Below, in pieces: positions 2 to 11,968 of a stretch of DNA of 64,000 nucleotides. Location: contig JAGBAA010000036.1 in assembly GCA_017939795.1 (NCBI GenBank), forward strand, positions 1 to 64,000, given 5' to 3'. The DNA comes from Thermoguttaceae bacterium (GTDB lineage: Bacteria > Planctomycetota > Planctomycetia > Pirellulales > Thermoguttaceae). The translations under genes and the position numbers were made by a program. Numbering within the stretch: the stretch's first letter is position 1; each line of letters opens with the position of its first letter. Under the pieces are notes generated by a model, which worked only from the letters and a program-made list of their open reading frames with translations, was not told the origin of the DNA and did not search any database.

Positions 2-1111
2 ACTGTCGACACAAATGGCGATGGAACCGCAGATTCCAAATCAATATTCATCCCCGAAGCCTATCAAACTGCCGTTCAACTTGACGACACCGACTTGACG
101 GACTCCGCCGGTCCAACCGTCACGCACCATTACCTCTGGACACCCAACGCCCAAGATAAACTCCTCGCCGACACGACGGCCGACGGTATTTTGTGGTCCC
201 TCACCGACCATCTTGGCACGATCCGCGACATCCTTGGCGACACATCCACTCACCTGACTTATGACGCCTTCGGAAACCTCACCTCCGGCACGAATCCACT
301 CCTTTTCGGTTACACCGGCAAGGCGTTCGATACCGACACCAATCTCCAAAACAACATCAACCGATGGTACGACGCTGCCGTTGGTTGTTGGTTGAGTACC
401 GATCTAATTGGATTCTTTGGGAATGATACAAATTTGTATCGTTATGTTGGAAATAACCCAAACGATATTGATACTTGGGGATTGATGGAAGATGGATCCA
501 GGGCAGATCTGCTTTTTATTAGAACAGAGGATGACGACGTAAGAGAACTGATAAGAGAACGATACCGGAAAGCGTACCGGTTATTAAAAGAACTCGCAGA
601 AAAATTGAGAAATGGTGATGCGTGGGTATTGAAGTGTTTTAAAACCTGGTACCCAAAATCTATGATTCGTGATTTTTGTCCAAAGGTTGACAAACTGATA
701 GAGGGACTTGAGGAAGGGCCATTATACCCAATCAGAGATACTCAAACTGACAAGAAGTGGTATGTAAGAAAAGTGGAGCGCGGCGAAAGGTTTTTACCTG
801 ATTATATTGGCTATGGCAAAGGTGCGTTGACAAAGGATGGAAAGAAGGATATTGAATATTCCTTAATTCATGAATTCACTCACTTATATCTGTTTTTTAA
901 AGATTATATGTACTATGACTCCGAAAAAAATCGGTATTATACAAGGAAGTCCATCACAGGCAGTACGCAAAACGAGGAAACCTATTGGGTCAATTCCATA
1001 ACAACAGAGCTTTTGGAGAAAAACGCAGATACATTTGAGCGTTTCGTAAAATGTGTTTTTGGTTTTGATAAGGAATTTGAAGTTCCTAAGATAAAAGTTA
1101 AATGGTGGTGA
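2..1111 (+). CDS. RHS-family polymorphic toxin, C-terminal part, with HExxH metallopeptidase-like tip (5' end outside window)
   Basis: The frame is open from base 2 with no stop, so the gene begins left of the window; 369 residues are visible. Residues about 1-155 are RHS repeat-associated core: WTPNAQDKLL, TDHLGTIRDILG, YDAFGNL, LLFGYTGKAFDT, NRWYDA, NLYRYVGNNP. After the core (from about base 484) the sequence becomes A+T-rich and unrelated to the other tips. The tip carries HEFTH (bases 869-883, residues 290-294), the zincin HExxH motif, followed by a Glu-rich helix that could supply a third zinc ligand. Metallopeptidase tips are known in polymorphic toxins. I infer a protease toxin released from the RHS shell. 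The next gene starts 4 bases on and is the likely immunity partner. The core has drifted slightly (GCWLSTDLIG where other copies read GRWLSTDPIG). Confidence 0.8.
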   Translation, partial: TVDTNGDGTADSKSIFIPEAYQTAVQLDDTDLTDSAGPTVTHHYLWTPNAQDKLLADTTADGILWSLTDHLGTIRDILGDTSTHLTYDAFGNLTSGTNPLLFGYTGKAFDTDTNLQNNINRWYDAAVGCWLSTDLIGFFGNDTNLYRYVGNNPNDIDTWGLMEDGSRADLLFIRTEDDDVRELIRERYRKAYRLLKELAEKLRNGDAWVLKCFKTWYPKSMIRDFCPKVDKLIEGLEEGPLYPIRDTQTDKKWYVRKVERGERFLPDYIGYGKGALTKDGKKDIEYSLIHEFTHLYLFFKDYMYYDSEKNRYYTRKSITGSTQNEETYWVNSITTELLEKNADTFERFVKCVFGFDKEFEVPKIKVKWW

Positions 1112-1115
1112 GATC

Positions 1116-1970
1116 ATGAAACATAAACAGAGTTCATTTCGACGGATATTTGTTTTCCTTGCCTGCATCCTCTGTTTGAAGGTCGGATGCTGCGAGAGTT
1201 GGGTATGTGCTCAAAGAAAAATTGACTGGGAATGGGTCTACGCTAATGAAAAAACCGACAAAGATCGTATCGATCTGCTCAATGCGATCCATGCTCGGGA
1301 TCTTGCAAAGATTCGCAAACTTGTAGAATCCGGTGTTTCCGTCACTGCACAGAGGATGGAGGGGCTAACTGTTCCATTATATAACGCGATCGATACGGAT
1401 GATCTCGCAATATTTCTCTATCTTACGGAACACGGAGCGAATCTGTGTCACCCAGACGAATTTTATGGTGATGATGTATATGGGTATTGGCAGCCGACTC
1501 CGCTGGAAGCTGCCGTTGTGGCTGGTGCATTCAATATCGCACGTTATCTGTTCCGCAATTCAGATAAAACAGAAATTGACACATTGCACCTTCTCCAAAG
1601 TGCTATTAATGGAAACAGCTATGAGATCGTTGAATTTATGATAAAAGAGAAGTTTACGAACATAGAAGAATTTAATGAGGCGGTATTGGCCGGTCATCCA
1701 GACCCACATGCTTATGAGAACACTTTACCAGAACATATAAAGACTGGTTTACGACATATGCGTCAACTCGTTCGCAAAGGTCTGGCTGACATCGATGACT
1801 ACGATGATTTAGTGCGGATCCTGGAAGAAGATGTACGCAGTTGGACAAGCAAAGACGATAGAGAAAATTTCATAAGATTTATCCGGCTTGCCGCAGAGTG
1901 GGAAGAGGTTCGGCAAATCACTCCGGAAGAGTTTCGTGAACTTGAGGAGTTCTACCATAAACATAATTGA
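1116..1970 (+). CDS. exported ankyrin-repeat protein, candidate immunity protein for the HExxH tip
   Basis: 284 residues. The N-terminus has a basic start, a hydrophobic stretch (FVFLACILCL) and cysteines (VGCCES), so it is a signal peptide, possibly of a lipoprotein. Residues about 50-190 contain ankyrin-like helical pairs (DLLNAIHARDLAKIRKLVES, PLYNAIDTDDLAIFLYLTEHGAN, PLEAAVVAGAFNIARYLF). The C-terminal third is charged and helical. The ATG is 4 bases after the RHS stop, with a GGTGAG ribosome site overlapping that stop, so the pair is translationally coupled. Position and export point to an immunity role outside the cytoplasm; this is inferred. Ankyrin proteins also occur as general partner-binding proteins. 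Confidence 0.65.
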   Translation: MKHKQSSFRRIFVFLACILCLKVGCCESWVCAQRKIDWEWVYANEKTDKDRIDLLNAIHARDLAKIRKLVESGVSVTAQRMEGLTVPLYNAIDTDDLAIFLYLTEHGANLCHPDEFYGDDVYGYWQPTPLEAAVVAGAFNIARYLFRNSDKTEIDTLHLLQSAINGNSYEIVEFMIKEKFTNIEEFNEAVLAGHPDPHAYENTLPEHIKTGLRHMRQLVRKGLADIDDYDDLVRILEEDVRSWTSKDDRENFIRFIRLAAEWEEVRQITPEEFRELEEFYHKHN

Positions 1971-1989
1971 CGATATTTTCAGTTTTTGC

Positions 1990-2018
1990 TTGACAAATTA
2001 TTCCAGATATATTAAACT
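1990..2018 (+). promoter_or_regulatory. array promoter copy 1 (TTGACA-17-TAAACT)
   Basis: TTGACA at 1990-1995, a 17-base spacer, and TAAACT at 2013-2018, followed by the GAAAACAT block seen after the other array promoters. The RHS leader is missing here; the promoter now lies upstream of the Imm31-like gene at 2164. Bases 2019-2150 hold nothing else recognisable. Confidence 0.7.
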
Positions 2019-2163
2019 GAAAACATTCAAAAACAAAAATGGGTTCATCGGACAAGTGCGTATCAGCTCCTGTAAATCATGAGAAATTTCAGGCAAAAGT
2101 ATTCCGGATCACGAAATTGGATAGTTACATTCCCATTAGTTTATTATTTCATGGAGAAACAAA

Positions 2164-2457
2164 ATGCAAGACGAGGATCCATATGCCAATCAAAAATATT
2201 CATTTTATGAGATCGTGATCATTGATTCAAAAAAAGAACATCTCTCTCAGTATAATGGGAGACGCGGATTTATTGAGGGAAAGTTAGATCCATCTGACTA
2301 TCGTCCCGGCGATGACAAGACAATCAGTTACGGTGTTCGAATTGATGGAGTACGAGAAGGATGGGATATTGATGAGAGGGATCTGAAACCTACTGGTGAG
2401 TTTGTAGATCCGAATAGCCCAGAAATAGAAAAATGGCGGCCATCGGAAACCACTTGA
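2164..2457 (+). CDS. Imm31-like immunity protein (solitary)
   Basis: 97 residues, no signal peptide, so cytoplasmic. The pattern YEIVIIDS...GRRGFIEGKLD...ISYGVRIDG..EGWDIDERDLKPTGE matches what I recall of the Imm31 immunity family of polymorphic toxin systems (small beta-rich proteins ending in a dL..TG motif). GGAG lies 8 bases before the ATG. An array promoter lies about 145 bases upstream and no toxin gene is attached, so it may protect against a toxin that has been lost or is carried by kin. Its stop codon TGA overlaps the -35 box of the next array promoter. Family assignment is from memory of the motif and needs a profile search. Confidence 0.55.
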   Translation: MQDEDPYANQKYSFYEIVIIDSKKEHLSQYNGRRGFIEGKLDPSDYRPGDDKTISYGVRIDGVREGWDIDERDLKPTGEFVDPNSPEIEKWRPSETT

Positions 2458-2482
2458 CAAATGATTTCGGATATGTTAAATT
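2454..2482 (+). promoter_or_regulatory. array promoter copy 2 (TTGACA-17-TAAATT)
   Basis: TTGACA at 2454-2459 overlaps the TGA stop of the upstream immunity-like gene. After 17 bases comes TAAATT (2477-2482), then GAAAACATCC as in the 8.4 kb copy. It drives the truncated leader at 2524 and probably the ankyrin gene at 2722. Confidence 0.75.
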
Positions 2483-2523
2483 GAAAACATCCAGACACCC
2501 TCCCATAAAAGGTCAACATTTCC

Positions 2524-2640
2524 ATGCCGCGTTCCCTAACACACCACCTCAACCATCGCCCGTTATTTTCCCGCTCGTGCCCGCACGAACGAAGGAACAT
2601 GAGGAGCGTTTGGCCTAATTGGGAGGGCGGCGTGTTTTGA
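2524..2640 (+). pseudogene. truncated RHS leader (38 codons), tip deleted
   Basis: The ATG at 2524 aligns with the leader ATGs at 3798, 5409 and 8486, with AAAAGG 11 bases upstream as in two of those copies. It reads MPRSLTHHLNHRPLFSRSC and on to MRSVWPNWEGG, then stops at TGA (2638-2640). The following bases (GCGTGTTTTGAAGAGCGGTA) still match the start of the RHS segment of the 5.5 and 8.6 kb copies, so the core and toxin tip have been deleted. Only the downstream partner gene remains. Confidence 0.6.
2570..2615 (+). repeat. array leader repeat, copy A
   Basis: A 46-base block starting CCCGCTCGTG and ending GTTTGGCC, present in near-identical form at 3844, 5455 and 8532 and in shorter form at 10101 and 11660. 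It encodes SRSCPHERRNMRSVWP in the leader frame. Differences from copies C and D are mainly synonymous in this frame. Confidence 0.85.
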
Positions 2641-2721
2641 AGAGCGGTAACGACACGGTTTCGCACCGCCGCCGCGGGACGCTGACCGCTACTCAGGAGG
2701 GGATTGTAGTAAGGAGTTTGT

Positions 2722-3780
2722 ATGAAATATTTACTTTTCTTTTGTGTTTTTTTGTTTTACAGTTTCAATCTTCATGCGGCGGAGATCGTGACTGCTGACG
2801 ATCTTGGCGTTGGCCGTCTTGGAAGCTGCCGCGGCCATCTGGTACTTTGGTCTAATTTAAAAAGCTGTGATGAATTAATGAAGAAATACCGGCTTCATTC
2901 GCGCCTTCCCATAAATCAGGTGGAGGTGCTGAATATGACGGCTTGGGACACCTACGCGTATCTTTCTATCAAAAAGAAAATGCGTGTTTTTATCGAGTCT
3001 TTTTCTGAGGATGTATTGGTACAGAACTATATCCAGCATCTGTTTTTGGAAAATATCACGGCTCTGGATGAGTTTAAAAAGGCTCATCCGGATTTCAATT
3101 TGAATTGTGAAAAAGGCGTTGCCTGGTATCTGGTCCTGAGGCTGGAACGGTATCTTTCCTATCTTTGGCTTTTGGAAAATGAAGCGGACCCCAATGTAAT
3201 TGTAGACGGACTTATCGTCAACGATCATCATGGAGAGCGAGAGCTTCGAACGCTCGTGATCGAAGATGTGTGCAATAAGGAGGAGTACCTTCTTCCTCTT
3301 TTGCAGCGTCACCCTTATTTGAAAGGCTATGTCAACGACGCGGGAGAGACGCTGTTCCACATGATTCGGAATCAAGCCAGTCATCTTATTCCGACACTGA
3401 CCCTGATGGGCTGCGATAAAGAAATTCTTGAATATAAGGATTGTGACGGTTTGACTCCGCTTGCGTCTGCCGTATACAGAAGACAATATAATGCGGCATT
3501 GCAGTTTCTCTGGATGGGAGCGGACCGAAACTGCCTTTTTGAAAAACATCCGAATGGGGGCTTTCTGGTGGGAGATTTAACGCCAATAGAGCATCTGGAA
3601 AGGGCCTATAAGTTGGACTCGGAATACCTTGCGGCTCCGGATCGTCACTTGGGGCAGTTGGCTCAAGCACAAATGCGGGTCGAACTGGAACAGATGCGGA
3701 ACCTTATTGAGTATATCCGTTTACTTGAAAAACAGGAAAAAACAGGCATTGATTTTAAACCTGCAATTCCCCAAGAGTAA
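2722..3780 (+). CDS. exported ankyrin-like protein, solitary candidate immunity protein
   Basis: 352 residues. A clear signal peptide (MKYLLFFCVFLFYSFNLHAAE) predicts export and cleavage after HAA. AAGGAG lies 5 bases before the ATG. The middle and C-terminal part have ankyrin-like units (YLSYLWLLENEADPN, TLFHMIRNQASHLIPTLTLMG, GLTPLASAVYRRQYNAALQFLWMGADRN), and the C-terminus is a charged helix. It follows the deleted leader at 2524, so its toxin tip is gone. The domain plan is like the product of 1116-1970, but the two sequences are clearly different. The immunity function is inferred from position. Confidence 0.6.
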   Translation: MKYLLFFCVFLFYSFNLHAAEIVTADDLGVGRLGSCRGHLVLWSNLKSCDELMKKYRLHSRLPINQVEVLNMTAWDTYAYLSIKKKMRVFIESFSEDVLVQNYIQHLFLENITALDEFKKAHPDFNLNCEKGVAWYLVLRLERYLSYLWLLENEADPNVIVDGLIVNDHHGERELRTLVIEDVCNKEEYLLPLLQRHPYLKGYVNDAGETLFHMIRNQASHLIPTLTLMGCDKEILEYKDCDGLTPLASAVYRRQYNAALQFLWMGADRNCLFEKHPNGGFLVGDLTPIEHLERAYKLDSEYLAAPDRHLGQLAQAQMRVELEQMRNLIEYIRLLEKQEKTGIDFKPAIPQE

Positions 3781-3797
3781 ACTGAATAATCAGAGCC

Positions 3798-4802
3798 ATG
3801 CCTTTCCACCTCACACACCACCTCAGCCCGCGCCCGTTATATTCCCGCTCGTACCCTCACGAACGCCGGAACATGAGGAGCGTTTGGCCTAATTGGGAAG
3901 GAGGAAACCTGATCCGAACGACGGACGCAGCCGGTGCGCAGACGGTATACACCTACGACACGGAAGGGCAGCTCCTCACGGTCACGGACGCGCTAAACAA
4001 CGTCAAATCCTACACTTACGACGCCTTCGGCAACCTGATTTCCGGTACGAACCCGCTTTTGTTCGGTTTCACTGGCAAAGCATTTGACACCTCTACAAAT
4101 CTCCAGAACAACATCAACCGATGGTATGATGCCACGATTGATCGCTGGTTGAGTGTCGATCCGATCGGGTTTGAGGGGAATGATGCGAATTTGTATCGGT
4201 ATGTTCTAAATAATTCAATAAAATTTATAGACACAATTGGACTTAAGGGAGTTAAGCCAGTAACTATAATTATATGGAATGATACAGATATATATAGAAG
4301 GCCGGATCTGGCTTTTTGTATGTCATTTAAAAATGCAGCCAGTTACTATATGAATTCCCCAATAATTGAAGGTAAAAAAATGCCAATTCCTGCGAGTCAG
4401 GTTAAGGAGCATCTTTGTAATTTGAGTACAGGGCCATATTGTGTAAAGACTGTTATTGTTATTGATCACGGTAATATGGCAGGCTCTCAATTGTTTCAGA
4501 ATCAGCTAATGGAAAAGGCTGATGATTTATTAGAAGCATTAGGAAACGTACTTTGTGAACATACAAGAATAAGATTTTTGCTCTTGGGCTGCGGAGTTGG
4601 AATAAAGAACCATCCTGAGGATATTCCTCCTACAGCTCGAGAACTTATAGATAGATTTTCTCCTCTGCCAAATGGAAAAACACGAAAAGTTATAGTTCAA
4701 GGGTATCCCCGTCGTGTAGACACTTTTATGCCTGGACGTTCAGGCAAAGAAAGCGGTCGGGGAGCTTCAATAAACACATTTCCTAACCCGTATAGTAAAT
4801 AA
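3798..4802 (+). CDS. orphan RHS tip with caspase-like (His/Cys dyad) C-terminal domain
   Basis: 334 residues from the conserved leader ATG (MPFHLTHHLS...MRSVWPNWEGG). The leader joins in frame to one or two YD repeats (NLIRTTDAAGAQTVYTYDTEGQ, TDALNNV), then skips straight to YDAFGNLISGTNPLLFG and the core end (GKAFDTSTNLQNN, RWLSVDPIGFEGNDANLYRY). The unique A+T-rich tip begins at about base 4210. It contains VIVIDHGNMAG (His codon 4467-4469) and, 41 residues later, IRFLLLGCGVG (Cys codon 4590-4592). A strand-HG and a strand-hydrophobic-G-C pair at this spacing resemble clan CD (caspase/DUF4347-like) cysteine peptidases. A peptidase toxin is inferred. An exported partner gene follows 23 bases on. 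Promoter weak: TAAACT at 3778 without a good -35 box. Confidence 0.65.
   Translation: MPFHLTHHLSPRPLYSRSYPHERRNMRSVWPNWEGGNLIRTTDAAGAQTVYTYDTEGQLLTVTDALNNVKSYTYDAFGNLISGTNPLLFGFTGKAFDTSTNLQNNINRWYDATIDRWLSVDPIGFEGNDANLYRYVLNNSIKFIDTIGLKGVKPVTIIIWNDTDIYRRPDLAFCMSFKNAASYYMNSPIIEGKKMPIPASQVKEHLCNLSTGPYCVKTVIVIDHGNMAGSQLFQNQLMEKADDLLEALGNVLCEHTRIRFLLLGCGVGIKNHPEDIPPTARELIDRFSPLPNGKTRKVIVQGYPRRVDTFMPGRSGKESGRGASINTFPNPYSK
3844..3889 (+). repeat. array leader repeat, copy D
   Basis: Same 46-base block with four differences from copy A. In the leader frame three are synonymous (Pro third base, Arg third base, Arg first base) and one changes Cys to Tyr. Confidence 0.85.
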
Positions 4803-4825
4803 TCCGAACCCAAATGGAGAATAAT

Positions 4826-5332
4826 ATGAAAAATACGATTCATGCCTTGATTTTGTTGGCGATGGCCTTTAATCTATTGCCAAGTGATTGTAAAGCAGAG
4901 ACCGACCAAAATGCTCCTGTGGCAGCAGAAGTGGAAGCTGTGATACAACAAGCCTTCTTAGAGAAACCAGTTGAGCTTGTCGTAGTACCGGACCATTCAA
5001 AAAAGCCCTGTTGTTACCCTCTCCCTGGAGAATTGAACAGACAGCTATCGAATTGTTTTTTCATCGAAGATATTGTTTTTATAGAATTTTATCCAGAGAA
5101 TGACGGAAGAATGTGCTATTATGTTCAAACAGAAATATGTATAGACGACGGTAGAATAAATATTTTTCTTGAGCCCTTTGAGAATGAGAACGGTGAATGG
5201 AAACTCGTGCACAACAGGAAAGCTTTCATTCTTTACAAGTGCACGAATGGTGAATATCTTATTCTCGCAAAAGTACCAGACAAATTTGCGCATCTTGTAG
5301 AAAATTTCATCCGCGATAATTTTAACCAATAA
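4826..5332 (+). CDS. exported candidate immunity protein (unrecognised family)
   Basis: 168 residues. The ATG at 4826 is chosen because GGAG ends 6 bases before it and a signal peptide follows (MKNTIHALILLAMAFNLLPS, cleavage near CKAE); the in-frame ATG at 4814 would place the ribosome site inside the gene. The mature part is a single alpha/beta domain with DIVFIEFYPENDGRMCYYVQTEI and NGEYLILAKVPDKF. No family recognised. It lies 23 bases after the caspase-like RHS tip, so it is the probable periplasmic immunity partner. A peptidase inhibitor is one possibility, but nothing in the sequence proves it. Confidence 0.6.
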   Translation: MKNTIHALILLAMAFNLLPSDCKAETDQNAPVAAEVEAVIQQAFLEKPVELVVVPDHSKKPCCYPLPGELNRQLSNCFFIEDIVFIEFYPENDGRMCYYVQTEICIDDGRINIFLEPFENENGEWKLVHNRKAFILYKCTNGEYLILAKVPDKFAHLVENFIRDNFNQ

Positions 5333-5338
5333 GAAAAT

Positions 5339-5367
5339 CCAGTAAGCCGTCCCGGAGACGCTAAACT
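5339..5367 (+). promoter_or_regulatory. array promoter copy 3, -35 box degenerate
   Basis: TAAACT at 5362-5367 with the CCGTCCCGGAGACGC-type spacer of this family. At the -35 position the sequence reads CCAGTA instead of TTGACA, so the promoter is probably weak or dead. The AAAAGG ribosome site and the ATG at 5409 are intact. Confidence 0.5.
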
Positions 5368-5408
5368 GGAAACATCCCGAAACCGTCCCACAAAAGGTTC
5401 CCATCCCC

Positions 5409-6602
5409 ATGTTGCATACCCTCGCACACCACCCCATTCCGCGTCCGTTATTTTCCCGCTCGTGGCCATACGAACGAAGGAACATGAGGAGCGTTTGGCC
5501 GAAGTCGGGGGAACTGCGTGTTTTTAAGAGCGATAACGGCTGCCGCTGGACACCGAACCAGCAGGACAAACTCCTCGCCGACACAACGATCGACGGTGTT
5601 TCATGGTCCCTGACCGACCACCTCGGCACGATCCGCGACGTCCTCGGAACCACCTCCACCCACCTCATCTACGACGCCTTCGGCAACCTCTCCTCCGGCA
5701 CGAATCCGCTTTTGTTCGGCTACACCGGTAAGGCCTTTGACACCGCCACCAACCTTCAAAACAACATCAACCGCTGGTACGACGTGAAAATTGGAAGGTG
5801 GTTAAGTACGGATCCTATTGGTTTTTCTGGTGGATATGACAATCTTTTTAAGTATGTTGCCAATAATCCGGTTTCTGCTACAGATCCTTCCGGATTAGTG
5901 CTTAACTCAATTATAAATTATATTGACACATATTCTCGAGTTACGTCAAAAGTCACAGAAGTTTTTGACAAAATCAAAGGAGCTTTAGGCGGCAAAGAAA
6001 TTCAGGTGTCACCAAACTTCAATATCCAGATTGAATCACGAATGGAAATATGTGAATTAGGTTGTCGGCATGAGATTAAAGAGGTCAGCATTACTGCAAA
6101 CAGTTTAAAAGGGGACATTACAGTAAACCGACATGGGGCGGTTTCTCTTAGTTTTGGCCCAAATTCATTGAAAGTCAACGCGAATGTTTATATCATAGCT
6201 TCCGTTGATTTTAACCTTAAAGCAAAAGCAATTTTTGAGCATAAATGTTTAGGGCATTTCGGTTTGGCTGGAATCTATTTCTATAAAGGTGGGGGAATTG
6301 AATCGCAACGTTTCGATATTGGTATCCAAACGGGGTTTAACCTAAATGGAAATTTAGAAATTAAAGGGGAATCAATAGTAAATGCTAATGCCCAAGCATA
6401 TCTTACTGGAAAAATTGTAGGAAATTTTGAATTCATTCACAAACCGACGATTGCCAATTTCAACCATAGTGGTTTTTTAAGACTTTCAGCACAAGGTGTT
6501 GTTCATGGTGGTGTTACGATAAAAATGAATGGTCAAACATTATATGAGCTGTCTGTAGGAAGTCAAACCCCAGTTTTGGTGTTTGAAACTCAGCTTTTTT
6601 AA
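5409..6602 (+). CDS. orphan RHS tip with unrecognised beta-rich C-terminal domain
   Basis: 397 residues from the conserved leader ATG (AAAAGG 11 bases upstream). The leader (PRPLFSRSWPYERRNMRSVW) joins PKSGELRVFKSDNG and then RHS core (WTPNQQDKLLADTT, SWSLTDHLGTIRDVLG, YDAFGNLSSGTNPLLFGYTG, GRWLSTDPIGFSGGYDN). The unique tip starts at about base 5890 (SGLVLNSI...). It has a short amphipathic helix, then more than 200 residues of alternating hydrophobic/polar strands rich in Gly, Asn and Lys (VNANVYIIASVDFNLKAKA, NGNLEIKGESIVNANAQAYL). This could be a beta-barrel or lectin-like fold. No catalytic motif is visible. Leader and early core are nearly identical to the copy at 8486. The partner gene follows at 6663. 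Confidence 0.65.
   Translation: MLHTLAHHPIPRPLFSRSWPYERRNMRSVWPKSGELRVFKSDNGCRWTPNQQDKLLADTTIDGVSWSLTDHLGTIRDVLGTTSTHLIYDAFGNLSSGTNPLLFGYTGKAFDTATNLQNNINRWYDVKIGRWLSTDPIGFSGGYDNLFKYVANNPVSATDPSGLVLNSIINYIDTYSRVTSKVTEVFDKIKGALGGKEIQVSPNFNIQIESRMEICELGCRHEIKEVSITANSLKGDITVNRHGAVSLSFGPNSLKVNANVYIIASVDFNLKAKAIFEHKCLGHFGLAGIYFYKGGGIESQRFDIGIQTGFNLNGNLEIKGESIVNANAQAYLTGKIVGNFEFIHKPTIANFNHSGFLRLSAQGVVHGGVTIKMNGQTLYELSVGSQTPVLVFETQLF
5455..5500 (+). repeat. array leader repeat, copy B
   Basis: The 46-base leader block with GGCCATAC replacing GCCCGCAC. After it the sequence switches to GAAGTCGGGGGAACTGCG, shared only with copy C, instead of TAATTGGGA of copies A, D and E. There are thus two junction types. 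Confidence 0.85.
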
Positions 6603-6662
6603 GTCGTTTTGTATTGTTTGATGCCATAATTATTGGAATATATGATTTACCAAGGGGGAGAT

Positions 6663-8348
6663 ATGAAACACGTTGTATTTCGAACCATTTTCGTTTTGCT
6701 GTTCCTGGTTTTCGGGTTGCATTCGTCTCTTTGGGCGGAAGTTCGAAATCTGCACATCGAAATGTATCCGTACGTGGTTCAGGCAAATCAGGTTCCGGAG
6801 ACTCAGGCGGTACATGTAGTACCGAGCGGAGCGGCGTATACGGTTTCGGTTCATACACCATCGGAAATCGATGAAGAACTAAATACGAAGATCCGCTCAT
6901 TTTATGAAACTCTTCAGGCAGAGCTTCATGATGGAAGAATTTCGTACGACCAGTATCTGGAACGGCTTGCGTGCTGGTACGCGGATCCGGGACAGAATCC
7001 GTGCGCGGCCTTAAGCGAAGATGGGACACTGGCTGCGATTTCCCGCTGGATGGGAGACGTAACGATCTACGATACGCAAACAGGGAAGAAAAGGTGCGTT
7101 CTGGAAGCTCCGGAATCTTTTCCCTCGGGTTTCGTTCTTCCGAAAATGCAGTTCAGCACAGACGGTACATTGCTGGCGGTGCTGCTTTCGCGTTCAGAGG
7201 CTCCGGATATGATCCTCATTTATGAAACGGAGACCGGCACTCTGCGGCACAAGATCCAGTCTCCGCGTCTCCTTTTCTTTCCTTCAGGGAAAGTTCGGAT
7301 GCTGGCACAAGAGGAGACCTGTTCCAAAGCCGCGGTTTGCGCGAAAGAGGCGATTGCGGTCCCGGCCGATTTGGATTTCAGTCTCCAGTCCGCGTTTGAA
7401 GCAGGCCAGCCGTGGAATCTGCCGTCCGTGACGGATTCCGTCCAGAAACAGGGACAGTTTGCCGCGATACGGAAAGAACTGCTGATTTATGTCATGGATG
7501 TTCCGCGTCAGATGAAGGTCTCCGGCGGTTTCACTTCGATGGAGACTCCGCTGGCCGGGATCATCTGCCTCCATGATCTTCGCAAGCCAGGTGCGGCTGC
7601 ATTTTACCCGGTACTCAATGAAGACGGCGGGGCGGTATGCACGCTGATGAACCCCGTCTTTTCTGAAAAGCTGAACAGCATTCTCTTCACGACAAATACT
7701 GAAAGAATCGTAAAGTTCTCCCTCGACACGCACCAGGCGGAATGGGTGTCCCCCAAAGGAGTCTTTGGCGCGTCGTCCCCCGATCACGCGATTTCGTATC
7801 CCTACCCTCAGAATGCCGCGTTCCTCACGTCGAATCATGGACTTCAGGTCCAGTGCGGTCTCTTGCGTCACCGTTTCGTCATGGACGGAAAGGTCGTCGG
7901 GGAAAGTATCGCGCTGCGCGAAGATCCTCTTAATGAACTGTTCCAGCCGCAGTATGCTCTCGTGAAAAATCATGCTGAGGAGATCCTTTGTGTACAGAAG
8001 CTCCTTCCGGATGGTATTCAAATACTGCGGGAGCTGTTTCCGGGAAAATCGTGCCGTGTTGTCTCCTCCTGCCTGACTTCGGACGGACGATACGCGGCCG
8101 CAGGGATCCAGAACATGGAAAAAGACCTCGAAACCGGATATGTCGTCCTGTGGGAAACGCGGACTGGAAAAGAACTCGCGGTGTGCCGGATGCCGAACAG
8201 GAAGGTGACGTTCAGCCAGCTCCAATTCATGCCGGACGGTAAAACTCTCGTCGTCCTGGCTCTTTCCTGCGGCAATCAGGAATGTACGCTCCAGCACGTG
8301 GAAGTCCCCAGCGGGAAGGTACTGCGGGATTTTCCACTTAAGAAGTAA
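6663..8348 (+). CDS. exported beta-propeller (WD40-like) protein, partner of the beta-rich RHS tip
   Basis: 561 residues. The ATG at 6663 follows AGGGGGAG and opens a signal peptide (VVFRTIFVLLFLVFGLHSSLWAE). Several propeller blades are visible: CAALSEDGTLAAISRWMGDV / TIYDTQTGKK, MQFSTDGTLLAVLL / LIYETETGTL, SCLTSDGRYAAAG / VVLWETRTGKEL, LQFMPDGKTLVVLAL. It starts 60 bases after the RHS stop, the position where other units carry an immunity gene. Its base composition is nearer to the chromosomal genes than to the A+T-rich tips, so it could instead be an older resident gene. It is much larger than typical immunity proteins. A partner role is inferred only from position and export. Confidence 0.55.
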   Translation: MKHVVFRTIFVLLFLVFGLHSSLWAEVRNLHIEMYPYVVQANQVPETQAVHVVPSGAAYTVSVHTPSEIDEELNTKIRSFYETLQAELHDGRISYDQYLERLACWYADPGQNPCAALSEDGTLAAISRWMGDVTIYDTQTGKKRCVLEAPESFPSGFVLPKMQFSTDGTLLAVLLSRSEAPDMILIYETETGTLRHKIQSPRLLFFPSGKVRMLAQEETCSKAAVCAKEAIAVPADLDFSLQSAFEAGQPWNLPSVTDSVQKQGQFAAIRKELLIYVMDVPRQMKVSGGFTSMETPLAGIICLHDLRKPGAAAFYPVLNEDGGAVCTLMNPVFSEKLNSILFTTNTERIVKFSLDTHQAEWVSPKGVFGASSPDHAISYPYPQNAAFLTSNHGLQVQCGLLRHRFVMDGKVVGESIALREDPLNELFQPQYALVKNHAEEILCVQKLLPDGIQILRELFPGKSCRVVSSCLTSDGRYAAAGIQNMEKDLETGYVVLWETRTGKELAVCRMPNRKVTFSQLQFMPDGKTLVVLALSCGNQECTLQHVEVPSGKVLRDFPLKK

Positions 8349-8413
8349 ATTAGAGAAAATGAAACTTTATCGTGCTTTTAGCAAGCAAAAAATACCGATT
8401 TTCTCATCTTTAC

Positions 8414-8442
8414 TTGACAAACGGTCCCGGATGTGCTAAACT
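8414..8442 (+). promoter_or_regulatory. array promoter copy 4 (TTGACA-17-TAAACT), best conserved
   Basis: TTGACA 8414-8419, a 17-base spacer, and TAAACT 8437-8442, then GAAAACATCC. The leader ATG is at 8486, with AAAAGG 12 bases before it. This copy has every element needed for expression of the RHS tip that follows. Confidence 0.8.
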
Positions 8443-8485
8443 GAAAACATCCAAACCCACCCTACACAAAAGGCGATTACCCCCC

Positions 8486-9451
8486 ATGTCGCGTTCCCTC
8501 ACTCACCACCAGCTCCCGCACCCATTATTTTCCCGCTCGTGCCCTCACGAACGAAGGAACATGAGGAGTGTTTGGCCGAAGTCGGGGGAACTGCGTGTTT
8601 TTAAGAGCGATAACGGCAGCCGCTGGACACCGAACCAGCAGGACAAACACCTCGCCGACACGACGATCGACGGTGTTTCATGGTCCCTGACCGACCACCT
8701 CGGCACGGTCCGTGACATCCTTGGAAGTGAAAATGTGCACCTGATTTACGACTCTTTCGGCAACCTCATTTCCGGTACGAATCCGCTCCTTTTCGGTTTC
8801 ACCGGCAAGGCGTTTGACTCCGACACCCACCTCCAAAACAACATCAACCGCTGGTATGATGCCACCGTTGGTCGTTGGTTGAGTACCGACCCGATCGGGT
8901 TTGAGGGGAACGATATGAATCTGTATCGGTATGTTAAAAACAAGGTCTTTTTATTCGTGGACTCGTTTGGATATGAACCATCCACTACAATAGAAACAAT
9001 CACTGTTTTTGGCAGAATTCCAGGAAATCCAGATCCAAAATCAAAAGATATTACCACCCGTTTTACTTTAACCATTACCACCTCATCAGAATGTGGAGGT
9101 GATAGTGGGACTGACCCCAGTATTACCATGGGGTGTGACGATATGAAAACTTGGACCATGAGAAATTTGGAATGGGGTGGTGTTGATATTGGAATTGCCT
9201 CTGTGGATATGACTTTTCATTTTACCCAGAAGGTTAATGTTACCACCGTAGATCGTCCGGATGGACAATCTGGTAAAATCTCATATGCGACATTGTACGT
9301 CAAAATTTATTCAATATTTACAATTGGTGTTGGTCTTAAGATTCCATATCCCCCTATTGGTGGTCATGCAACGGTTCACACTGAAAGACAGGAGCATGGA
9401 ACTTTTACCTTTAAAAGAAAAATTGAATGTTGTTCGACTTGTGACCAGTAG
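8486..9451 (+). CDS. orphan RHS tip with unrecognised Thr-rich beta domain
   Basis: 321 residues from the leader ATG at 8486; earlier in-frame starts lie upstream of the promoter and are rejected. The leader and core (WTPNQQDKHLADTTIDG, DHLGTVRDILG, YDSFGNLISG, GRWLSTDPIGFEGNDMNLYRY) are followed by a unique tip from about base 8950. The tip is Thr/Ser/Gly-rich with strand patterns (TTIETITVFGRI, TRFTLTITTSSECGGDSG, DIGIASVDMTFHFTQKVNV, KISYATLYVKIYSIFTIGVGLKI) and ends in a Cys cluster (CCSTC). No enzyme motif is visible. The pattern suggests a secreted or pore-like beta domain; unproven. A lipoprotein partner starts 32 bases later. Confidence 0.65.
   Translation: MSRSLTHHQLPHPLFSRSCPHERRNMRSVWPKSGELRVFKSDNGSRWTPNQQDKHLADTTIDGVSWSLTDHLGTVRDILGSENVHLIYDSFGNLISGTNPLLFGFTGKAFDSDTHLQNNINRWYDATVGRWLSTDPIGFEGNDMNLYRYVKNKVFLFVDSFGYEPSTTIETITVFGRIPGNPDPKSKDITTRFTLTITTSSECGGDSGTDPSITMGCDDMKTWTMRNLEWGGVDIGIASVDMTFHFTQKVNVTTVDRPDGQSGKISYATLYVKIYSIFTIGVGLKIPYPPIGGHATVHTERQEHGTFTFKRKIECCSTCDQ
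8532..8577 (+). repeat. array leader repeat, copy C
   Basis: The 46-base leader block. It differs from copy A at two bases, both third codon positions in the leader frame (CCG/CCT Pro, AGC/AGT Ser). Confidence 0.85.
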
Positions 9452-9483
9452 AGTGTTGCGCATTAAACGAAAGGAAGATAAAG

Positions 9484-9933
9484 ATGAAATCCTCACTAAT
9501 TATTGCAATAACAGTTATGTTGTCAATCCTAGGAATAGTTGCTTGCAGACCCTTCTCGGCTGCGGTTCCTCAGCATGTATCTTATTCCTCCTTAACCAAA
9601 GAAATTAATGGAACGACCTATATCTTTTTGGGGATGTTTTCTGAAAATTTTTCGGTGATAGTCTTTACCCATAAAAGAATGATTGATGGAGAATTGAATT
9701 CGGAAACACAGAGTGCCTATATTTTTGTGGAAGGAAAGTCGATTCCGTTAGATATGAGTACGGTATATTTTCTCTCAGAAAATGACGATGTTACACCTGT
9801 GTCCAATTATGAAACCATCGGAGTCAAATATGATTTTTCCTCAAAAGAACAATTTTTCAAAAACGTAATCTCGATTATCGAGATGAAATTAAACAAAACG
9901 GGGCTATACTCCACTGGGGTTTGGATAAAATAG
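9484..9933 (+). CDS. lipoprotein, candidate immunity protein (unrecognised family)
   Basis: 149 residues. AAGGAAG lies 7-8 bases before the ATG. The N-terminus MKSSLIIAITVMLSILGIVAC is a lipoprotein signal with lipobox IVAC (Cys 21). The mature domain is a small alpha/beta protein (INGTTYIFLGMFSENFSVIVFTHK, QSAYIFVEGKSIPLDMSTVYF), and the C-terminus has an amphipathic helix. It follows the beta-rich RHS tip by 32 bases, so it is probably co-expressed with it. A membrane-anchored immunity protein is inferred; the family is not recognised. Confidence 0.6.
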   Translation: MKSSLIIAITVMLSILGIVACRPFSAAVPQHVSYSSLTKEINGTTYIFLGMFSENFSVIVFTHKRMIDGELNSETQSAYIFVEGKSIPLDMSTVYFLSENDDVTPVSNYETIGVKYDFSSKEQFFKNVISIIEMKLNKTGLYSTGVWIK

Positions 9934-9962
9934 CTAAAATTAAGTTTTGTAATTCTCCCCAC

Positions 9963-9995
9963 TTGACAGAACGTTGCGGGGGGGGGGGGGAAACT
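9963..9995 (+). promoter_or_regulatory. array promoter copy 5 with 13-G tract in the spacer
   Basis: TTGACA at 9963-9968, then GAACGTTGC, a run of 13 G (9978-9990), then AAACT (9991-9995), which aligns with the end of TAAACT. The distance from TTGACA to AAACT is 22 bases rather than the 18 of the intact copies, so the G run has lengthened the spacer by 4. A homopolymer here can change length by slippage and so switch the promoter. GGAAG and the ATG at 10004 follow. Confidence 0.6.
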
Positions 9996-10003
9996 GGAAG
10001 ATT

Positions 10004-10558
10004 ATGACAAGAAATACTCGAATTTCACAACCATCTCACCTTCATTCTCTCCATCCCCTCTCCCGAAGGAGACGGGGAAACGGTGTCTCGTGTTTCCAAC
10101 ACGAACGAAGGAACATGAGGAGCGTTTGGCCTAATTGGGAAGGAGGAAACCTGATCCGGACGACGGACGCAGCCGGTGCGCAGACAGTATACACCTACGA
10201 CACGGAAGGGCAGCTCCTCACGGTCACGGACGCACTAAATAACGTCACGTCCTACACTTACGACGCCCTTGGCCGTCTCCTCACGACGACCGACGCCCGC
10301 GGAACTGTCACTCGAAACACGTACGACGCAGTCGGAAATCTGCTCCAAACGAAGCAGTATGATCCAACAGAACTGCCACCCCCGGTCGGCACTTGGCTGG
10401 ATATTGAACAGGATTTCAATGGTTCAAGTTCGATCAAAATTTTAGGAGGTAGAGCTGACATAGATTACAAAGTCAGGCTGTTCGTGAAGGGTAAACGCGC
10501 GAGAAGCACGATTGATATATCAGATTACGATCAGTTATACTGCAACTTTACGATATGA
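10004..10558 (+). pseudogene. degenerate RHS fragment: leader plus YD repeats, core end missing
   Basis: 184 codons from the ATG at 10004 (GGAAG 4 bases upstream). After a divergent N-terminus it rejoins the leader (HERRNMRSVWPNWEGG) and YD repeats (NLIRTTDAAGAQTVYTYDTEGQ, TDALNNVTSYTYDALGRL, TDARGTVTRNTYDAVGNLL). The conserved core end (LLFG.TGKAFD...NLYRY) is absent. At KQYDPTELPPP it changes to an unrelated 55-residue piece (GTWLDIEQDFNG...QLYCNFTI) that looks like the remnant of a tip or of another protein. It lacks the self-cleavage region of working RHS proteins, so a functional toxin is unlikely, although the frame is open. Confidence 0.55.
10101..10131 (+). repeat. array leader repeat, copy E (partial)
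   Basis: Identity with the leader block starts at ACGAACGAAGGAACATGAGG and runs through GTTTGGCC. The 5' part is replaced by unrelated sequence that includes a short inverted repeat around CGGGGAAACGGTGTCTCGTGTTTCC. Confidence 0.75.
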
Positions 10559-10615
10559 AGGGTATTATGGAGAGTGTAAGTAGCTGGCGGGTAATTTATT
10601 GAATGAGGTGAGGGT

Positions 10616-11632
10616 ATGAAATTTACATTTGGGCATTTCCTTTGTTGTATGGCAGCTATATTTTTTTACAGCGGTTGCCAAAGTGTAAGTACATGGAGGA
10701 TCGTATTGCCGCAGAGTGAAACAAAAGCCATGGAAATCTCGTATGGGATATTGAAAAATTTACGTTTATCCTGTATCGATACAACACACAAAGAGATCCA
10801 ATCCTTGCAGATTTTCTTTGGAGACTCATTTGGCCGCAGGATGACGCTGTGCGGCACCTCGCAAAACAAACACCTTCAGATTCCAGAAAATATTCAGCCG
10901 AAAACACAGAAAAAAGATCTCAGCCGACATGATGAGCTGCTGATCCTGCTTTCCCGCTCTTTCTGGTTCCAGATCCCCGATCACGAGACGATCGGACTTT
11001 CTGTTCGGAATGTTCTGGACGAGGAAAAGGTCAGGCAAACAAAAGAATATTGTCTGACGATACCTGAAAATCAGAAGTATTTAATAGATTTTACGCCGTT
11101 ATTGTCTTCCCTTCCTGATCCGCAGGAAGTAAGAGTTGCAGTGTGGCGCCATGAAGGGGCCTTATTTTATTACTCGCAGGCTGTAATTTCCGAAAATAAT
11201 ACTGCTGAGTTATTTCTCACGCCAGAACAGGAATATGTATTGTTCCTTTATTATCGAGCATCAGGAAATAAATATGTATACCATTACCAAACCTGGGTCC
11301 CTGGAGATTTGCCGAAACCGGTCGATGAGTACAAGACGTTTACCGTCTCACATTCGGAAATGCCCATTGCACGGGTATATCCAGCACGAGAGTTCCCAAT
11401 TCACCCATCTCGAAATGAATGTACAGACGACTTGCTCGCCTCGCTGGATTTTGCACTATCTCCCTTTGCAACAGAACCAAGGGATGCTATTTTTTGTGCA
11501 TTTTACGAGACCTGCGAAGATGCCGAGCTGTTTGGTCCTCCTGGAACTATTACATTTTCAGCAGCAGGTACTACGTATAACCTGGATTCGAATTACCGGC
11601 CAAAACCATTCAAGCTTAAAGTGCATAACTAA
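10616..11632 (+). CDS. lipoprotein of unknown function, last partner gene of the array
   Basis: 338 residues. GAGGTGAGGG precedes the ATG. The N-terminus MKFTFGHFLCCMAAIFFYSGC is a lipoprotein signal (Cys 21). The rest reads as several beta-rich segments (IVLPQSETKAMEISYGILKNL, QIFFGDSFGRRMTLCG, EVRVAVWRHEGALFYYSQAVIS, ELFLTPEQEYVLFLYYRASG) and a C-terminal GTITFSAAGTTYNLDS. No family recognised. It starts 57 bases after the degenerate RHS fragment and is moderately A+T-rich like other partner genes. It is probably an immunity lipoprotein whose toxin has decayed, but this is positional inference. Confidence 0.6.
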   Translation: MKFTFGHFLCCMAAIFFYSGCQSVSTWRIVLPQSETKAMEISYGILKNLRLSCIDTTHKEIQSLQIFFGDSFGRRMTLCGTSQNKHLQIPENIQPKTQKKDLSRHDELLILLSRSFWFQIPDHETIGLSVRNVLDEEKVRQTKEYCLTIPENQKYLIDFTPLLSSLPDPQEVRVAVWRHEGALFYYSQAVISENNTAELFLTPEQEYVLFLYYRASGNKYVYHYQTWVPGDLPKPVDEYKTFTVSHSEMPIARVYPAREFPIHPSRNECTDDLLASLDFALSPFATEPRDAIFCAFYETCEDAELFGPPGTITFSAAGTTYNLDSNYRPKPFKLKVHN

Positions 11633-11659
11633 TGGGAGTGCTTTGAAATAAATCTTATT

Positions 11660-11692
11660 CCCGCTCGTGGCCGCACAAACGAAGGAACAGGC
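11660..11692 (+). repeat. array leader repeat, copy G (terminal, eroded)
   Basis: CCCGCTCGTGGCCGCACAAACGAAGGAACAGG resembles the first two thirds of the leader block, then diverges. No RHS sequence follows. Together with bases 11700-11968, where I see nothing recognisable, this forms the right boundary of the array. Confidence 0.65.
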
Positions 11693-11968
11693 GGAGTTTC
11701 AGCGGCTGAGGAGCCGGCGCAGCCTCATTCATCCTGACCGCCTGCCGGGAGTTCTCGCTCTCGGCGGACCTTCTTTCAGGGGGTTTTTCTGAGATGCAGT
11801 ATCCTGTGTGCAAGAGATTTGATTTCAGGAGTTTTGTTCACTCACGGACAGATACATTTTGCAGAAGATCCTGAAATTTCCCGAAGGCATTTTGGGCTGA
11901 TTTGGGCGAAACGGGCACCAGGAACAGCGCGGCGGCGTGAGTTCGTGAAAAGATGGGGCGGGTACTCC

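Follow-up and report, generated by a model that had tools for sequence, protein, structure and literature searches.

Does a run of 13 G lying between the two halves of a promoter act as a phase-variable switch for the genes behind it, or is it the relic of a promoter in decay? The site is at 9963-9995 of the window, that is, the whole 64,000-nucleotide stretch of Thermoguttaceae DNA analysed here. It was picked out by a sequence-only reading, which proposed that the loss of about four G would restore normal spacing for the unit carrying a lipoprotein gene. The window is one contig end of an assembly of 4.51 Mb (90% complete, 146 contigs), and its open reading frames include prepilin-like sequences of the DUF1559 type, as expected of Planctomycetota.

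A G13 tract in an array promoter

Orphan rhs tip cassettes are rhs 3' fragments arranged in arrays, with a small gene after each. The region 95-11632 is an array of this same layout; it differs in that most units have their own promoter and in that the unit behind the tract, unit F, is without the Rhs-associated core. Elsewhere in the array this core (NCBIfam Rhs_assc_core) is followed by differing tails, in the units starting at 95, 3798, 5409 and 8486. In the unit at 10004, NCBIfam profiles did not find Rhs_assc_core, and YD repeats alone are present. The features on which the argument turns are the following:

1990-2018, + strand: intact array promoter copy, TTGACA-17-TAAACT
2454-2482, + strand: intact array promoter copy, TTGACA-17-TAAATT
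5343-5377, + strand: array promoter copy, -10 TAAACT kept, TTGACA lost
8414-8442, + strand: array promoter of the unit before, intact (TTGACA-17-TAAACT), a possible source of read-through
9963-9968, + strand: -35 hexamer TTGACA of the site under study, 6/6 (sequence; alignment with eight other array promoters)
9969-9977, + strand: first part of the spacer, GAACGTTGC (sequence, alignment)
9978-9990, + strand: spacer homopolymer G13, its last G at the position of the first T of the -10
9990-9995, + strand: what is left of the -10, GAAACT, where intact copies have TAAACT; spacing 21 against 17
10004-10558, + strand: rhs fragment of unit F, an orphan with YD/RHS repeats and a short unrelated tail (Pfam RHS_repeat, 1e-23; NCBIfam YD_repeat_2x)
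10616-11632, + strand: putative lipoprotein, second gene of unit F; intact open frame of 338 aa, N-terminal hydrophobic stretch ending in YSGC, lipobox-like

What the sequence-only reading had said of the anatomy is confirmed: TTGACA is kept, the 13-G run lies inside the spacer, the -10 part is four bases too distant compared with the TTGACA-17-TAAACT/TAAATT of intact copies, and the first -10 base is G for T. Put otherwise, this T has been absorbed by the G-run (positions 9962-10009 read CTTGACAGAACGTTGCGGGGGGGGGGGGGAAACTGGAAGATTATGACA). The site is also the fifth array promoter, as stated, in the sense of the fifth recognisable one: the copy near 5340 is without TTGACA, and no clear promoter precedes the rhs unit at 3798, the copy at 3750 being damaged. 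Outside the window, intact array promoters with TTGACA-17-TAAACT/TAAATT are found on contigs C7 (two copies), C24 and C54. Most probably, we are dealing with a copy of the sigma-70-type promoter of the rhs-cassette array in which G13 has taken the place of the spacer.

A G-run of 13 or more is expected 0.0014 times in the window under a first-order Markov model, and among the five G-runs of at least 10 in the whole genome this one is the longest. Folding of the leader is unremarkable (z -1.5).

The array promoter TTGACAAACCGTCCCGGATRTGCTAAACTGAAAAYAT is conserved in its spacer besides the hexamers (window 1990-2026, 2454-2490 and 8414-8450; L362, L364, L365, L366). Seven copies are present in the same genome and two in the sister genome G001 (L361, L363), and non-rhs genes lie behind some of them. 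The conserved spacer points to a regulator that binds it or to a mobile segment carrying the promoter. Upstream of the rhs fragments there is also a conserved leader element, CTCGTG....CACGAACGAAGGAACATGAGG, with an imperfect inverted repeat (3842-3881, 5453-5492, 8530-8569, 10084-10123, 11658-11697). The copy at 11658 is solitary, without an rhs frame, and is perhaps a recombination or cassette scar.

The window promoter at different tract lengths

If the locus were a working on/off switch, the loss of about four G (17-nt spacing) or of six G (15-nt spacing) would turn on the rhs fragment and the lipoprotein. The geometry permits this: the -35 hexamer is perfect, 9 G place GAAACT at 17, as the proposed four-G loss demands, and 7 G place it at 15; in addition, sister genomes have tracts as long as G16 at a spacing of 21 beside good -10 hexamers. 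However, restored spacing does not bring back the -10, as the best match within 15-19 nt is at most 3/6 at any number of G. The first T is gone at every tract length. Four to six net deletions would be required. Transcription may also come from the promoter at 8414: between it and the lipoprotein start at 10616, the search for terminator-like sites on the + strand gave no convincing candidate, and thus read-through may express unit F at any tract length. Taken together, a working switch at this locus is rather unlikely.

The tract might instead be read in translation. A frame opening at TTG 9974 places the tract inside the rhs ORF, so that a change in length would throw translation out of frame or affect the ribosome-binding region of ATG 10004; indeed, the frame 9974-10558 is open across the tract at length 13, and ATG 10004 begins 13 nt past it. 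Yet the tract precedes both ATG 10004 and the conserved Met at 10114, neither of which depends on its frame, and in the alignment it falls on the promoter spacer of the other copies, which makes this reading very improbable. An error of assembly in the tract length is only slightly less improbable. The assembly is incomplete and probably metagenome-derived, and homopolymer length is uncertain in such data; against this, the flanks around the tract are unique, the contig end is far away, and the architecture recurs in independent genomes.

The lipoprotein has no match in Pfam, NCBIfam or PHROGs; neither the genus nor 119 family genomes yielded a detectable relative, and the locus is absent from the 118 other family genomes. 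This means that there is no second allele for strain comparison.

Recurrence of poly-G spacer promoters

Among 101 family genomes, six, from two genera only, together contain 11 distinct sites of the pattern TTGACA-Gn-AAA (TTGACA, 3-12 bases, eight G, AAA within 0-3 bases); the reversed control gave 0. In the genus (eight genomes), G-runs that lead straight into a -10-like TANNNT (G9-TANNNT) numbered 89 against 5 in the reversed control, and TTGACA followed by G8 within 1-10 nt occurred at 20 distinct sites against 2. The set of sites as a whole pools several searches that partly overlap, and it does not cover every site. A second, larger group of sites has TGTTAA in place of TTGACA. As a cause of the class of G-tract promoters, pure chance was considered and is ruled out by the 89 against 5, the 20 against 2, the reversed control of 0 and the expectation of 0.0014.

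For the window site taken singly, chance has to be weighed in another form, namely that a dying array promoter gained a functionless homopolymer by slippage. The missing Rhs core domain of unit F, the damaged -10 and the damage to the neighbouring promoter copies at 5340 and 3750 are all in line with such decay. The genus-wide excess of TTGACA-Gn sites over the control speaks against it, as does the same genome, which has two TTGACA-Gn sites and none in the reversed control. We consider this account somewhat doubtful.

One intact site of the same genome is at 54335-54361 of contig C1, TTGACA-TTTGC-G10-TAAAAT (TTGACATTTGCGGGGGGGGGGTAAAATGGG). G12 tracts on contigs C56 and C64 follow TGTTAA at contig ends, upstream of the gene start MKTNTTKLRHALTAF..., which resembles a C64 protein with a PEP-CTERM-like end. 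Both contigs (L028 1-250, L029 1-250) terminate in almost the same signal-peptide gene start, with G12 upstream; the near-identical ends indicate that the assembly is interrupted within a family of repeated surface-protein genes.

The sister genome G005 stands out, with 57 G9-TANNNT sites against 1 in the reversed control and 149 G-runs of at least 9 (e.g. L230, L234, L244, L256, L257, L268). MutS1 restricts slippage. It is present in seven of the eight genus genomes, that of the window included, and was not detected in G005, the genome with the most tracts; as G005 is about 91% complete, incompleteness could account for its absence. The surface-protein repertoire of G005 is possibly hypermutable. 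The promoter-like element TGTTAA-15-TANAAT with a poly-G spacer is commoner there than the TTGACA type (L231, L236, L248, L250-L252, L254, L264 and others). This -35 half is unlike that of sigma-70, and another sigma factor may read it.

The genome of the window is different in this respect. It has 15 G-runs of at least 9, which is not above a simple 25% G expectation, so it is not rich in poly-G and only the longest runs stand out; its single G9-TANNNT site is equalled by one in the reversed control. The low number of runs, the G9-TANNNT count and the presence of MutS1 all count against the reading as a slippage switch.

Spacing is tuned to 15 nt

Tract length offsets the non-G bases that precede the tract: AGTC plus G11, TTTGC plus G10 and GCT plus G12 each sum to 15. 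When tract lengths were permuted, with sites treated as independent although some are paralogues, a spacing of 15 was in excess both at TGTTAA/GTTAA-type sites with a -10-like hexamer (23/30 against 10.8 expected, P<0.0001, 0/20000 permutations) and at TTGACA-type sites (13/27 against 7.1, P=0.003). Spacing held at 15 indicates a role of the tracts as promoter spacers that selection maintains.

The distribution has tails at 14, 16, 17, 19 and 21. In G007 the core TTGACAAATAC is followed by G10 at one site and G12 at another, in G003 by G14 and by G16, with some error on exact lengths, as the genus relatives are draft assemblies. These tails and length differences are what slippage would be expected to leave. 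Close paralogues give a mixed picture, as tracts are unequal in three pairs (L060/L315, G11/G10; L207/L212, G16/G14; L217/L311, G13/G11) and equal in two near-identical ones (L251/L252, both G11; L028/L029, both G12), the equal pairs counting against a switch.

The tuning has a second possible meaning, since a preferred 15 could reflect a fixed promoter design. The poly-G would then be a structural spacer of a promoter class, read for example by a regulator or an alternative sigma factor, with no phase variation. A spacing of exactly 15 at most sites across species and the many sites with the non-canonical TGTTAA both agree with this proposal. On the other hand, tracts of G10-G16 are known to be slippage-prone, the related copies listed above do differ in length, and a fixed spacer does not require one repeated base. 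We regard a fixed spacer as unlikely.

The window site does not follow the rule of the genus class, in which the G-tract abuts TANNNT at about 15 nt: its spacing is 21-22, and AAACTG follows the tract. By this architecture it is an outlier, or a poor member, of the poly-G spacer class.

Surface-protein signatures among the genes behind the tracts

In G005, 9/20 scorable downstream genes have a PEP-CTERM-like end against 9/260 in the background (P=2e-7), as counted by a motif rule on crude gene calls. Profile searches of downstream genes found PEP-CTERM domains, passenger-associated transport repeats (PATR), autotransporter beta-domains and Chlamydia Pmp-type repeats. Of the five sites in the second genus, four precede proteins starting ESLEERTLLAV-like or ESLEDRCLLAV, which is typical of large planctomycete surface proteins; choice-of-anchor Q was the one profile match among the downstream proteins there.

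Discussion

Our results point in different directions for the lineage and for the locus. The poly-G spacer switch proposed by the sequence-only reading is well supported for the lineage by recurrence, orientation, spacing and gene classes, and weakly for the window. By its architecture, we propose, the window site probably falls in the genus-recurrent class in which a G-tract immediately precedes the -10, and within this class it is more likely to be off or decaying than to be an efficient switch. The loss of the first T of the -10 and an rhs fragment without the Rhs core make off or decaying its most likely state, and a fast, efficient on/off switch at the locus is less likely and, in our judgement, quite improbable. 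At its assembled length, the promoter would be off or very weak, given a spacing of 21 against 17 in the array and a class mode of 15. In the class at large, slipped-strand gain or loss of G would alter the distance between -35 and -10 and hence the binding of RNA polymerase, and such changes in spacing might switch surface-protein expression between cells.

There is about an even chance, as we see it, that the uncultured bacteria of this genus use dozens of poly-G spacer promoters as a contingency system. Its promoters would prefer a 15-nt spacing and have -35 halves of either the TTGACA or the TGTTAA type, and it would turn surface proteins, PEP-CTERM proteins and Pmp-type autotransporters, on and off at random. 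The expansion of the system in one species would coincide with no detectable MutS1, and the window site would be an outlying member.

As the sequence-only reading pointed out, poly-G between -35 and -10 is a phase-variation device elsewhere. In Treponema pallidum, the gene tp0126, an OmpW homologue, has poly-G at this position, and its transcription depends on the total spacing, with an optimum of 17 nt (PMC7864442). The sites described here share the poly-G spacer and, in the sister species, the surface-protein gene; they differ in a modal spacing of 15 in the genus and 21 in the window and belong to an unrelated phylum. As touched on in the same paper, porA of Neisseria meningitidis has poly-G between -35 and -10, with spacing controlled by slipped strands (PMC7864442). 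The window site resembles both in its G-tract of at least 8 between -35 and -10 (TTGACA...G13...GAAACT), but porA encodes a porin and has an intact -10, whereas the window site has a broken -10 with an orphan rhs fragment and a lipoprotein behind it.

Two further likenesses are within the PVC group. In Chlamydia trachomatis, lpxC (CT533) has poly-A in the -35/-10 spacer, and the same paper notes that varying poly-tracts have been put forward for the Pmp genes of C. pneumoniae (PMC4514472). The homopolymer is again in the spacer of a PVC-group bacterium; however, it is poly-A at one locus there and poly-G at dozens of loci in the sister species here, some of them before Pmp-type autotransporters. 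For Akkermansia muciniphila, a gut PVC bacterium with a PEP-CTERM system and long homopolymers, phase variation by mononucleotide repeats has been proposed (PMC3048395). It shares this proposal and PEP-CTERM with our genus, but its tracts were described within genes and ours are promoter spacers.

Among the open-access papers searched, we found no published report of poly-G promoter-spacer switching in Planctomycetota. Although the device is of a known kind, what appears to be new is its lineage, how many sites there are and the link to PEP-CTERM proteins. If the proposal is true, promoter-spacer poly-G switching extends to a lineage for which this open-access literature held no report, and a surface repertoire of PEP-CTERM proteins and autotransporters is tied to random switching. 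The window site by itself is of little weight.

Across the species-level genome collection, TTGACA-Gn-TANAAT was found in at least 120 stretches, from gut Clostridia, Treponema, Helicobacter, Moraxella, Lentisphaerae and others, which indicates that the poly-G spacer device is widespread and not specific to one lineage. Such promoters are frequent in assemblies of uncultured gut Clostridia and Bacilli, several genomes being repeated among the matches listed (L080-L159).
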